From: Endobacter medicaginis
GTDB lineage: Bacteria > Pseudomonadota > Alphaproteobacteria > Acetobacterales > Acetobacteraceae
Direction: 5' to 3'
Length of the DNA stretch: 64,000 nucleotides
NCBI RefSeq assembly: GCF_014192375.1
Contig: NZ_JACHXV010000006.1
Span: 186,001-250,000 of the forward strand
Both the position numbers and the translations under genes were made by a program. Shown here piece after piece: positions 4,245-45,081 of the stretch. Numbering within the stretch: position 1 is the first letter of the stretch; each line of letters opens with the position of its first letter. The notes under the pieces were generated by a model, which was not told the origin of the DNA, did no database searches, and was given only the letters and a program-made list of their open reading frames with translations.

Positions 4245-5753
4245 ATGAACAGGCTGGTGGTGGTGTCCAATCGGGTGACGATCCCGAGCGCCGGCGCGAA
4301 GGCCGGCGGGCTCGCGGTCGCCCTCAACGAGCTGATGGAGCGCCAGGGCGGGCTGTGGTTCGGCTGGAGCGGCCGCGCCTCCGACGACGCCGCCAGCACG
4401 TCGAAGCCCGCCATCGTCGACCATGGCTCGGTGCAGTATGCGACGGTCGACCTCACCCATGAGGAATACCGCCGCTACTATACCGATTTTTCCAACGGCA
4501 CGCTGTGGCCGCTGATGCATTCGCTGACCGAGCAGATGCATTTCGACCGTCGCTCGCTCGCCGCCTACCGGGCCGTCAACGAGCGCCTGTCCGACATCCT
4601 GCTGCCTCTGCTGCGTCCGGACGATGCGATCTGGATCCATGACTACCACTTGCTGGCGATGCCGGCCGCCCTGCGCGCGCGCGGCGTCACCGCGCCGATC
4701 GGCTTCTTCCTGCACACCCCGTTCCCCTCGCCCGACATCCTCTCCTCGGTGCCGGATGCGGCGGTGATCATCCGCGACCTGCTCTCGGCGGATCTGATCG
4801 GGTTCCAGACCGCCAACGACGCAGAGAACTTCGCCGCCTCCGCCCATCGCATCGCCGGCGCCACCCGCCTTCCCGGCGGCTCCCTGCGCATCGCCGGCCG
4901 CGATATCCGCGTCGGCGCCTTTCCGGTGGAGATCGACCCGCAGGAGTTCGCCCGCACCGCCGAGACCGCTTCGCACAACTCCGACACACAGCGCCTGCGC
5001 CGCTCGCTCGACGGCCAGAGCCTGATCCTCGGCGTCGATCGCATGGACCCGACCAAGGGCCTGCGCCACCGCCTTGCCGGCTATCGCCGCCTGCTGGAGA
5101 CCCGCCCGGCCCTGCGCCGCGCGATGACGTTCGTGCAGATCGCCGCCGAGAGCCGGCAGGAAGTCGACAACTACCAGTATCTGCGCGAGGACCTCGACCG
5201 CATGAGCGGGTCGATCAACTCCACCTTCGGCGAGGCCGACTGGCTGCCGTTGCGGCTGACCGCGCGCGGCGGCTCGCGCGACACCATCGCGGGCTACATG
5301 CGCGAGGCCCGCATCGGCCTCGTGACGCCGCTGCGCGACGGCATGAACCTCGTCGCCAAGGAATACGTCGCCGCGCAGAATCCCGACGATCCGGGTGTGC
5401 TGATCCTGTCGAAGTTCGCCGGCGCCGCCCGCCAGCTCGGCGCGGCCCTGCTGGTCAATCCCGTCGATGCCGACGAGATCGCCGATGCGCTCGACAATGC
5501 GCTGCGGATGAGCCGACCCGAGCGCCAGGACCGCTGGATGGCGCTATGGGAGACCATCAAGGACACCTCTGCCCTCGGCTGGGGCCGCAGCTTCGTCAAC
5601 GCGCTCGCCGACAGCGGCGAGAGCCAGGGGGGTCGAGTGCAGCGTCCTGGCGATCTGAGCCCGGCGACCTTCCCCAATGTCGGCAGCAAGGCTGCCGACC
5701 GCCGCGGCGCCGAACTGCGCCTGGTGCCGCCGACCTCGCTGTCCGTGAACTGA
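4245..5753 (+). CDS. otsA: alpha,alpha-trehalose-6-phosphate synthase
   Basis: GT20 enzyme that joins UDP-glucose (or another NDP-glucose) to glucose-6-phosphate to make trehalose-6-phosphate. It has 502 residues from the ATG giving MNRLVVVSNRV, the usual family N-terminus; a GTG at 4224 and an ATG at 4230 upstream in frame are alternatives. Motifs seen: GGLAVAL, WFGWSG, WIHDYHLL, FFLHTPFPS, GVDRMDPTKGL and DGMNLVAKEYVA. About 40 residues after the catalytic core (GGRVQRPGDL onward) look unstructured. It stands 177 bp after malQ in the same direction, joining glycogen and trehalose metabolism. No trehalose-phosphatase (otsB) lies beside it in this window. Confidence 0.96.
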   Translation: MNRLVVVSNRVTIPSAGAKAGGLAVALNELMERQGGLWFGWSGRASDDAASTSKPAIVDHGSVQYATVDLTHEEYRRYYTDFSNGTLWPLMHSLTEQMHFDRRSLAAYRAVNERLSDILLPLLRPDDAIWIHDYHLLAMPAALRARGVTAPIGFFLHTPFPSPDILSSVPDAAVIIRDLLSADLIGFQTANDAENFAASAHRIAGATRLPGGSLRIAGRDIRVGAFPVEIDPQEFARTAETASHNSDTQRLRRSLDGQSLILGVDRMDPTKGLRHRLAGYRRLLETRPALRRAMTFVQIAAESRQEVDNYQYLREDLDRMSGSINSTFGEADWLPLRLTARGGSRDTIAGYMREARIGLVTPLRDGMNLVAKEYVAAQNPDDPGVLILSKFAGAARQLGAALLVNPVDADEIADALDNALRMSRPERQDRWMALWETIKDTSALGWGRSFVNALADSGESQGGRVQRPGDLSPATFPNVGSKAADRRGAELRLVPPTSLSVN

Positions 5754-39217: not shown

Positions 39218-40582
39218 ATGAGCGATGTCGACAGCATCATCGAACGGATCGGCGGCGCGGCCGCGGTGGCGTCTCTCACCGGCGTCGGGCTCGAGGCGAT
39301 CCGCAAATGGCGCCAGAGCCGGGCGATCCCGGCGAAGCACTGGCCGAAGCTGATCGAGGCCAGCGGCCTCGGGCTGGACGCCTTCACCCCTTCCCAACCC
39401 GCGCAGGAGCCCGGCATGACCGATCCCGAATCCTCTGTTCCGCCAGGGGCGACTGCCGCGCTGGTGCTCGCCGACGGATCGGTGTTCTGGGGCCGTGGCT
39501 TCGGTGCCCATACAGGTCCCGACGGCGAGGCGATCGGCGAGCTGTGCTTCTCCACCGGGCTGACCGGCTATCAGGAGACCCTCACCGACCCGTCCTTCGC
39601 CGGGCAGATCATTACCTTCACCTTCCCGCATATCGGCAATGTCGGCACCAACGAGGCCGATCTCGAGGCCGCCACGATCGCCGCACGCGGGCTGGTGGTG
39701 CGGGCCGACGTTACCGCGCCGTCGAACTGGCGCAGCACGCAGACGCTCGATGCGTGGCTCAAGCGCCAGCGTATCCCCGGCATCGCCGGCGTCGATACCC
39801 GCGCCGTCACCCTCGCCCTGCGCGAAGGCGGCCCGCAGACCGCGGTGCTGGCCTATCCGGCCGACGGACGCTTCGACCTCGCAGCCCTGCGCGCCCGCGC
39901 CGCCGCCTGGCCCGGGCTGGAGGGAATGGATCTAGCGAAGGAGGTCTCCTGCCGGCAGAGCTATCACTGGTCCGAGGCACGCTGGGACTTCAGTGGCGCT
40001 GCAGCCCCGGCACCGCGGCACAAGGTGGTGGCGGTGGATTATGGCGCAAAGCGCAACATCCTTCGCTCGCTGGTGACGGCGGGCTGCGACGTCACCGTGG
40101 TGCCGGCCACCGCCACCGCGGAGGATATCCTCGCCCATCAGCCGGACGGGGTGTTTCTCTCCAACGGCCCCGGTGATCCGGCGGCGACCGGCGCCTATGC
40201 GGTGCCGGCGATCCGCGGCGTGATCGACAGCGGCACGCCGGTGTTCGGCATCTGTCTCGGCCACCAGCTCCTCGCCCTCGCCCTTGGAGCGCGCACCTAC
40301 AAGCTGCCGCAGGGCCATCGCGGCGCGAACCAGCCGGTCAAGGATCTCGCCACCGGCAAGGTGGAGATCACCAGCCAGAATCACGGCTTCGCAGTCGATG
40401 GCGACAGCCTGCCGGACGGCGTCGAGGTCAGCCATGTGAGCCTGTTCGACGGCAGCAACGAGGGGCTGCGCTGCACCGACCGCCGCGTGTTCTCGGTGCA
40501 GTATCATCCGGAAGCGAGCCCCGGACCGTCCGACAGTGCGCATCTGTTCGACCGCTTCGTCGCCCTGATGGACGCGGATTGA
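39218..40582 (+). CDS. carA: carbamoyl-phosphate synthase small subunit with fused N-terminal HTH domain
   Basis: The C-terminal part, from Met67 (ATG at 39416 with AGGAG upstream), is a complete Car[41 protein letters not shown], and the class I glutamine amidotransferase domain with Cys346 ([10 protein letters not shown]) and [10 protein letters not shown] carrying His/Glu. It supplies ammonia to CarB for pyrimidine and arginine synthesis. In the same frame with no stop, residues 1-60 ([40 protein letters not shown]) form a Cro/YdaS-like helix-turn-helix. Two products are possible: the fusion from 39218 and plain CarA from 39416. I recall that RefSeq uses a domain name, carph-isopro, for such an HTH, but could not check. 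Confidence 0.9.
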
Positions 40583-40586
40583 GCAT

Positions 40587-40628
40587 GTTTACTGAAGTAT
40601 ATGACGCAGGTCGTATATTTCCGTAAAC
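40587..40628. promoter_or_regulatory. 42-bp inverted repeat with symmetrical promoter elements
   Basis: Left arm GTTTACTGAAGTATATGAC and right arm GTCGTATATTTCCGTAAAC agree at 16 of 19 positions when one is reversed, around the 4-base loop GCAG. Each arm holds a TATA element and a TTTAC element, so it may be a bidirectional promoter/operator. It begins 5 bp after the carA stop and ends 9 bp before the ATPase start; no Shine-Dalgarno is seen. Confidence 0.6.
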
Positions 40629-40637
40629 TTCATTCAC

Positions 40638-41807
40638 ATGGATCCGATCCGCAACCCCTTCGTGCCCGGCGCCGGGGCCGCACCGCCCGAAATCGCAGGG
40701 CGCGAGCGGTTGATCGGCCGTGCCGAGATCGCGCTGCGCCGCGCCCTGCAGGGACGCCCGGCGAAGAGTTTCATCGCCGTCGGCCTGCGCGGGGTCGGCA
40801 AGACGGTGGTACTCAACCGGGTCCGCAACCTCGCCGATGAGCTCGGATACCGCTCCTGCGCGATCGAGGCGCAGGAGGCGAAATCGCTGCCCGAGCTGCT
40901 GATCCCGCACCTGCGCCGGATGACGCTGGAACTCGACCGGATCGGCGCGCTGTCGGAACACGTCAAGCGCGCGCTGCGGGTGCTGAAAAGCTTCACCACC
41001 GGGCTGAAGGTGCGTTACGGCGACCTCCAGCTCGACGTGCAGGCCGAGGCCGGCGTGGCCGACAGCGGCGATCTCGAAGCCGACCTGCCGGAGCTGATCG
41101 CCGCCCTCGGCCGGGCTGCGAAGGCGCGCGAGACCGGCATCGCGCTGGTCATCGACGAGATCCAGTTCCTCGGCGAGCGCGACATGAGCGCACTGATCAT
41201 CGCCATGCACCGCGTGATGCAGGAGCAGCTTCCCGTGGTGATGGTCGCGGCCGGGCTGCCGCAGGTGGTCGCATTGTCGGGCCGGTCGAAATCCTATGCG
41301 GAGCGGCTGTTCGACTACCCCGCACTGGGCGCGCTGTCGGACGAGGATGCGCGCACCGCCCTGGTCGAGCCGGCGCGGCGCGAGGAGGTGGCATTCTCCG
41401 ACGCCGCACTGGACGCGATCCTGCGCATCACCGAGGGCTATCCTTATTTCCTCCAGGAATGGGCGTATCAGGCCTGGAACGTCGCCGAGGGTCCGGTGAT
41501 CGACGCGGCCGACGTCAGTGAGGCCACCGGTGCGGCGATCGAGCAGCTCGATGGCAGTTTCTTCCGCATGCGCTACGAGCGGCTGACGCCGCGCGAGCGC
41601 GCCTACTGCCAGGCGATGGCTGAACTCGGCCCCGGCCCGCACCGTTCCGGCGACATCGCGGCACGGCTCGGCCTGCGGGTGCAGACGGTCGGCCCGCTGC
41701 GCCAGAACCTGATCCGCAAGGGCATGGTCTACAGCCCGGCCCATGGCGATACCGCCTTCACCGTTCCGATGTTCGACCAGTACCTGCACCGTCTCCAAGG
41801 CCATTGA
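40638..41807 (+). CDS. orphan AAA+ ATPase with C-terminal winged helix (Orc1/Cdc6-like)
   Basis: A 389-residue protein. N-terminal [20 protein letters not shown] leads to Walker A ([14 protein letters not shown]), Walker B ([14 protein letters not shown]) and sensor 1 ([13 protein letters not shown]). [17 protein letters not shown] follows, and a C-terminal winged helix ([20 protein letters not shown]). The layout resembles archaeal Orc1/Cdc6 and the orphan ATPases scattered on bacterial chromosomes and plasmids, which have no established role. It sits between carA and carB, which are normally adjacent, behind its own inverted-repeat promoter. The stop is 13 bp before carB, so carB may depend partly on this promoter. 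Confidence 0.85.
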
Positions 41808-41820
41808 GGGGTTCCGACCG

Positions 41821-45081
<3,261 letters not shown>

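Follow-up and report, generated by a model that had tools for sequence, protein, structure and literature searches.

The 64,000-nucleotide stretch of Endobacter medicaginis DNA analyzed here (the window) carries an AAA+ ATPase gene, preceded by an inverted repeat, between carA and carB. This arrangement raises the question of whether the intervening gene is a regulator of carB or a mobile gene lodged in the operon. The original prediction offered both readings and described an orphan ATPase with a 42-bp inverted repeat of its own at this place. The description is borne out by the coordinates of the features (Table 1), by the pairing of the two repeat arms and by the shuffled controls described below.

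Table 1. Coordinates of the carA-carB locus in the window and the basis of each assignment
Feature	Position	Strand	Basis
carA	39218..40582	+	ORF; CarA homologs at same place in relatives; start uncertain, 39218 or 39416
Dyad of the carAB clade, match to model R2	40573..40637	+	52.8 bits, sole match in own genome; window among the 17 training sequences
Left arm of inverted repeat	40587..40605	+	Arm pairing
Possible promoter, ATGACG-17-TAAACT, 8/12	40601..40629	+	By eye; under threshold of sigma-70 scan
Right arm of inverted repeat	40610..40628	+	Arm pairing
Orphan AAA+ ATPase, 389 aa, ATG start	40638..41807	+	AAA_16 at 1.5e-11, above cut-off; pLDDT 91.3
Walker A, GLRGVGKT, residues 49-56	40782..40805	+	7/8 residues invariant in 48 relatives
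Walker B, VIDEIQ, residues 171-176	41148..41165	+	D173, E174 and Q176 invariant in 48 relatives
C-terminal winged-helix-like domain, residues 318-386	41589..41795	+	Secondary structure of model; whole-length structure matches of Orc/Cdc6 and SSO1545 type
carB	41821..45081	+	ORF; same order in relatives

The gene, its repeat and its protein

The ATPase ORF of the window is unbroken and retains the ATPase motifs. It is the only copy in its genome, and 13 nt separate its stop codon from the start of carB. The inverted repeat, GTTTACTGAAGTATATGAC-GCAG-GTCGTATATTTCCGTAAAC, lies at positions 40587-40628 between carA and the ATPase gene and is 42 bp long, with a 4-nt spacer and 19-bp arms that are complementary at 16 of 19 positions. 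The palindrome score of the 80 upstream bases was reached by none of 60 dinucleotide shuffles. A half-site pattern derived from both arms (16 fixed bases, up to 3 mismatches) matched only the two arms in the window, where 0.01 matches were expected, and only the same two arms in the 3.6-Mb genome. A control pattern read backwards had 3 matches in the 3.6-Mb genome, and so the genome scan shows that there is no further copy of the half-site, not that so loose a match is rare. The repeat was not listed by a general repeat search of the window, presumably because the mismatches leave no exact seed of 9 bases. No direct repeats (at least 30 bp, 80% identity, within 700 bp) flank the repeat and gene together, hereafter called the unit. 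Promoter elements had been predicted in each arm of the repeat, but a sigma-70 scan of the upstream region gave no promoter pair at threshold. The candidate promoter picked out by eye (Table 1) would possibly yield a nearly leaderless mRNA.

The only curated cut-offs passed by the ATPase were those of the generic models AAA_16 (PF13191; 45.6 bits, cut-off 32.6) and AAA_22. The cut-offs were missed for ATPase_2 (PF01637; 18.3 bits against 33.2) and for Orc1/Cdc6 (TIGR02928), which matched residues 16-68 only with 27 bits against 181.3. PADLOC models gave only weak partial matches to Cas3 (best E 0.0023), and no toxin or antitoxin family was matched in the Pfam, curated orc1/cdc6-type and PADLOC profile searches. 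A single-sequence search of solved structures returned nothing useful; a profile of the family reached ORC4 at E 8.7e-6, over 46 residues only.

The predicted structure (pLDDT 91.3, pTM 0.88) most closely matched two archaeal proteins, PABY2304 (PDB 2qen; Z 24.1, rmsd 4.4, 322 residues aligned) and SSO1545 (PDB 2fna; Z 22.8, rmsd 4.2, 327 aligned), followed by Aeropyrum ORC2 (PDB 1w5t; Z 20.7, rmsd 5.6, 335 aligned). Next in the ranking came NLR and apoptosome proteins, other Orc proteins and TnsC. Foldseek ranked Orc1/Cdc6 (PDB 2qby) first, with RuvB also among the matches. The predicted likeness to Orc1/Cdc6 thus holds for the fold and for a short profile match but does not extend to the curated cut-off.

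Across 48 relatives the Walker A lysine, Asp-173 and Glu-174 of Walker B, Arg-223 and Arg-355 are invariant, as are most residues of one N-terminal stretch. Judged by its position Arg-223 is a possible arginine finger, and Arg-355 sits in the last long helix. The winged helix (residues 318-386) of the model is presumed to be the part that would bind the dyad. Residues 11-20 (positions 40668-40697) are among the most conserved of the family and yet the least confidently modeled; they may dock on a neighboring subunit or a partner. In nine close pairs of relatives dN/dS was 0.01-0.10 (NG86; 11 pairs tested), showing that these pairs are under purifying selection. Outside the close pairs the values were 0.115 (L093/L013) and 0.28 (window/L092), both at high dS.

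Dyad, boundaries and hosts of the unit

Matches to the ATPase were found in 23 of 200 genomes of the same family (20 full-length, three as pieces only) and in 24 of 289 genomes sampled from the class (14 full-length, including the window, and 10 either partial or below 36% identity). A search of a species-genome collection with six short peptides gave 81 loci, of which 80 were kept. Their titles name Proteobacteria, Planctomycetota, Chloroflexi, Gemmatimonadota, Bacteroidota, Chlamydiae, Actinobacteria and others, many of the loci being metagenome-assembled genomes (MAGs), so that some phylum labels may be wrong. Relatives were also present in 120 plasmid records and one phage record, and in a quick tree of 102 proteins the groups mix phyla.

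In most of 79 upstream regions inspected by eye an AT-rich element ends about 10 nt before the ATG, locus L075 being without one. A palindrome was detected at p ≤ 0.05 in 52 of 107 upstream regions and this level was not reached in the other 55; all eight regions of the Amycolatopsis group were without a simple palindrome at the same level. Across 106 regions, boxes of the TTAT type are most frequent around -66 and -45, and those of the ATAA type around -33, -22 and -14. The 31 upstream regions of one large clade share a symmetry axis with a mean complementarity of 0.63, compared with a median of 0.31 over 40 axes. For 24 pairs on this axis, which were picked on the same alignment as tested and are favored by that choice, 77.4% of cells pair (33-45% when slid), the covariation score is 0.216 (0.06-0.105 when slid) and 66 cells change on both sides (34.7 in shuffles). 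The dyad of the large clade therefore covaries as a DNA palindrome. An RNA hairpin as the source of the symmetry was rejected: RNAalifold predicted 0 pairs on the same alignment, and the dyad is strong as DNA.

At E ≤ 1, a covariance model of the large-clade dyad (R1) matched a single place, at the ATPase gene, in each of 12 genomes, 11 of the 12 dyads being training sequences of the model. It also matched on the reverse strand, as a palindrome must. In one genome (G496) there was an extra match, a weak one (E 0.6) immediately past the ATPase, that we read as the trace of a second copy. R1 was also applied to 53 loci and matched each of the 29 used for its training and 10 of the remaining 24; every match lay in the upstream region of the ATPase except for a site in L029, and the window was not matched. 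A second model (R2) was built from 17 training sequences of the carAB clade. In the window genome R2 matched only the window repeat, and it matched 15 of 16 carAB copies, all 15 of them training sequences, the exception being that of genome G140. In the scanned genomes the dyad thus stands at the promoter place and nowhere else, as seen by models largely built from those sequences. Most relatives of the ATPase have a dyad immediately upstream of the ATG, of which the window repeat is the carAB lineage's version, and the repeat proved to be paired with the ATPase among relatives, the carAB copy of G140 being without it.

The dyad and ORF behave as a portable unit of about 1.26 kb. Loci L033 and L036 have flanks that are 87-89% identical, and they are 94.8% identical from the dyad to 2 bases past the stop codon; the unit is edged by unrelated short stretches of 79 and 106 bp before it and 165 and 20 bp after it. 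That these loci are different genomic places was considered and rejected, since they are syntenic, and the pair is therefore counted as an exchange or a separate arrival of the unit at one place. L044 and L045 agree at 90% over a stretch that begins 88 bases upstream of the ATG and ends 33 bases beyond the stop codon, and outside these limits nothing is alike in the loci compared. The likeness of L058 and L064 (91%) ends 9 bases past the stop codon and continues leftward for about 940 bases.

The genomic settings of the unit are varied. On a plasmid of Vibrio sp. HDW18 (L194, 5700-7400) it is a cassette in an array, between two VCR-like repeats that we take to be VCR/attC sites, and its neighbors in the array are HigA, RelE and DUF3265-type genes. 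In this copy the unit thus lies between array repeats as an integron gene cassette does. On a plasmid of Sphingobium baderi SC-1 the unit stands where sister plasmids have an AbiEii toxin ORF. Here the flanks are 95.7% and 93.3% identical to those of the sisters, 31 bp of the toxin start are left and the DUF6088 gene ahead of the unit is kept; an AbiEii gene is listed at the matching stretch in 12 of 16 records. In Aromatoleum toluvorans a copy of a 373-bp gene end is present on either side of the unit, and a relative (G510) has the site uninterrupted. At both ends of the repeat the right copy is closer than the left to the empty site (3 versus 10 and 9 versus 13 differences); in the middle it is slightly more distant (6 versus 5 and 6 versus 4). 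This pattern points to recombination anchored in the homologous gene end. Transposition with target duplication is disfavored by these copies.

Under a strict test (at least 30 bp, at least 80% identity, within 700 bp of the unit) direct repeats flank 10 of 112 units and 8 of 692 control stretches (Fisher p 3e-5), a value that is rough because the integron is among the ten, some loci are near-duplicates and some control hits share a locus. A looser first test showed no excess (19 of 115 loci, 14 of 91 controls), and the strict limits of identity, length and distance were set after a look at its outcome. The direct repeats are 36-432 bp long and are pieces of neighboring genes. No terminal inverted repeats were seen by eye at the unit ends compared, and the terminal repeats with fixed-length target duplications of an insertion sequence were not found. 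The unit contains one ORF, for the AAA+ ATPase, and no transposase. The prediction of a mobile gene is upheld by the patchy presence, the plasmid copies, the ends of the unit close to dyad and stop codon, the cassette array, the gene replacement on a plasmid, the empty site and the flanking direct repeats.

In a Methylococcaceae MAG (L057, 1450-3377) the ATPase lies between a tRNA-Lys gene and a 47-bp copy of the tRNA 3' end, 1,850 bp apart, and this 1.85 kb looks like an integrated segment. A general rule of tRNA targets was judged too weak, with a tRNA within about 500 bp at 7 of 60 loci, partly near-duplicate pairs. In L022 tandem repeats with an 18-19-bp unit (GGGAAACCCAATAGGGGTCG type) occupy positions 5487-5598, just downstream of the ATPase.

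No partner gene emerged from the 25 largest clusters of neighbors, in which fixed positions were found only in actinobacterial loci and for carA; two of these clusters (12-13 loci, scattered positions) have the look of large superfamilies. From 306 neighboring ORFs listed, 105 were scanned against PADLOC and Pfam. The Pfam matches, in the 25 of 130 families listed, were mostly to housekeeping families, and among the 25 of 48 PADLOC families listed none occurred in more than 3 of the scanned ORFs. Defense islands as the home of the unit were rejected on these two grounds, in a comparison that had no matched control.

The carA-carB gap in Acetobacteraceae

The placement of the ATPase relative to carA and carB was examined by tblastn of CarA, CarB and the ATPase on the 23 matching loci of the family. 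The gap between carA and carB holds a full-length ATPase in 14 of the 23 genomes, including that of the window, and only a C-terminal remnant of it in two more (G162 and G155). The other seven have no carA-carB pair in their flanks, G202 giving a weak 54-residue match to CarB. Set against all 200 genomes of the family, the gap holds the ATPase in 14 intact copies and 2 remnants, and so not in all relatives. Two Roseomonas MAGs also have the ATPase between carA and carB, with extra genes alongside that are presumably SDR-like and LysE-like. In five of the 20 family regions inspected (G174, G017, G132, G131 and G171) carA and carB are 7-35 nt apart without the ATPase.

The 16 carAB copies form one group (SH-aLRT 96) and require one change on the quick tree. 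Apparently the unit entered the carA-carB gap once, in an ancestor within the Acetobacteraceae; the ATPase seems to have come early, to have been lost often and to have been regained sometimes. The insertion between carA and carB that had been predicted is real, and the arrangement is an old one, belonging to one Acetobacteraceae clade of 16 loci. The unit of the window is most likely an old passenger of the car operon. For carB, 13 nt downstream, only an indirect effect is plausible. The dyad may act as an internal promoter for carB; G176 and G219, which are of the same genus, have the dyad without a working ATPase.

Other carAB regions show how variable the gap is in detail. In G219 (L149, 651-850) the dyad is intact and is followed by a short in-frame fusion of the first and last residues of the ATPase, and then by another AT-rich ORF. 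In G176 (L148, 409-1357) the dyad is intact after carA and an unrelated AT-rich ORF replaces the ATPase before carB. A decayed copy of the ATPase adjoins an intact one in G122 and G222, and G187 has an identical 56-bp duplicate of the carB start ahead of the unit. The carAB copy that stands beside that of the window in the quick tree (L096, G140) is without the dyad altogether. Six loci (L152, L154, L155, L156, L095 and L097) have a gene of about 90 codons (FRHPISAPNIEAGYERF type) between carA and carB, which indicates that the gap collects other genes too.

Possible roles of the unit

We consider it rather probable that the repeat and ATPase form a self-contained, horizontally spread, autoregulated unit that is a passenger of the car operon in the window. 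Such a unit would comprise a palindromic operator that merges with a promoter immediately ahead of the start codon and, behind them, one gene only, for an AAA+ ATPase with a C-terminal winged helix. As an ATP-dependent oligomer, the ATPase would use this helix to bind the dyad of its own gene, and would limit or trigger its own transcription via that dyad. We infer both binding and autoregulation because the dyad occurs only in cis. Having no transposase, the unit would be carried by other mobile DNA (plasmids, an integron array, a tRNA-flanked segment) or be transferred when neighboring genes recombine homologously. Once in the carA-carB gap it would be inherited, lost and sometimes regained, and read-through or its own promoter may feed carB. 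As to cellular output, our preferred but weak guess is a single-gene defense or stability function. There are only two hints on the unit's action, namely the replacement of a toxin gene on a plasmid and the place among toxin-antitoxin cassettes.

The unit has points in common with several known systems. Proteins of the SSO1545, PABY2304 and Pfam ATPase_2 type provide the best whole-length structural matches, but the identity of the first two to the window ATPase is 14-16% and the ATPase_2 cut-off is missed. The archaeal and eukaryotic Orc/Cdc6 initiators share the AAA+ domain plus winged helix; the present unit differs from them in occurring in bacterial operons, cassette arrays and plasmids, with its dyad at the promoter place. 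The mycobacterial regulator IniR is described as having an AAA+ domain similar to SSO1545 and is reported to bind and activate a promoter (PMC5760070). IniR has 818 residues, with a MalT-like domain and a separate DNA-binding domain (PMC5760070), compared with 389 residues in the window ATPase, and the likeness is that of the AAA+ domain as described there. Toxin-antitoxin and other autoregulated modules resemble the unit in being self-contained with an upstream control region of their own, and the unit shares the Vibrio array with HigA and RelE and occupies the AbiEii place on a plasmid. However, it is one gene, for which no partner was found and no toxin or antitoxin family was matched. TnsC and MuB share the AAA+ fold (PDB 7mbw, Z 16.2) and the moving gene, whereas the unit has no adjoining transposase or visible terminal inverted repeats.

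These comparisons suggest that the unit is an autoregulated portable accessory gene, which is a known kind. It is possible, although we regard it as doubtful, that the dyad and ATPase instead represent an undescribed class of stand-alone mobile unit, in which an AAA+ winged-helix protein of Orc/Cdc6 type, together with the cis dyad on which it acts, would be a complete selfish, stability or defense module that crosses phyla without transposase, integrase or partner. None of the titles and opening lines of abstracts surveyed in the literature described the dyad-ATPase unit; this does not establish that the unit is unpublished. Gene and operator recur in uniform arrangement, with an Orc/Cdc6-like protein, in many bacterial groups, with no partner or recombinase found. 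The unit may point to a single-gene accessory module of a new kind, and the window provides an example of such a unit settling inside a core biosynthetic operon.

Four other explanations were weighed. The ATPase and repeat might have been recruited to regulate carB, either balancing CarA and CarB or sensing nucleotides. The 13 nt between the ATPase stop codon and carB would suit such a regulator, as would a place kept in 16 loci of one clade and the retention of the dyad beside carA in G176 and G219 after loss of most or all of the ATPase. However, in many phyla the dyad-ATPase pair has unrelated genes as neighbors, and a gap of 7-35 nt without the ATPase separates carA from carB in many Acetobacteraceae (5 of 20 regions inspected). 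This role, also proposed in the original prediction, found support in no result, and we hold it to be improbable. Somewhat less probable still, in our view, is an actively mobile element, with the ATPase participating in insertion of the unit as TnsC and MuB do. The sharp boundaries, the close direct repeats at 10 of 112 loci and the fold matches to TnsC and MuB would fit, but no transposase or integrase was found travelling with the unit, and the repeats vary in length (36-432 bp) and are pieces of neighboring genes. Moreover, the Aromatoleum copies fit anchored recombination better than target duplication, and proteins that do not transpose match the fold equally well or better.

Remnants and losses are frequent in the family, which would be expected if the ATPase were a decaying, functionless foreign gene and the repeat an accident of AT-rich DNA. 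To this explanation we give slightly less weight again, because the window ORF is intact with its ATPase motifs, close pairs are under purifying selection and the dyad symmetry is far above the slid and shuffled controls. Least probable of all is a replicator, with an Orc/Cdc6-type initiator and the dyad as its origin, as in archaea. The kinship of fold and profile with Orc/Cdc6 and the roughly helical-turn spacing of the upstream boxes are in its favor; on the other hand, the ATPase falls far short of the curated orc1/cdc6 cut-off (27 against 181.3 bits), the ORC4 profile match spans 46 residues only and the dyad stands just before the ATG, at the place expected of a promoter. The reading of the unit as an autoregulated passenger is accordingly the one we favor.

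Upstream of the operon's first gene, the window has a 66-residue in-frame stretch (39218-39415) ahead of the usual CarA start that is helix-turn-helix-like, and CarA of this family may have a DNA-binding extension. Comparable stretches precede CarA in relatives L003, L012, L013 and L014.
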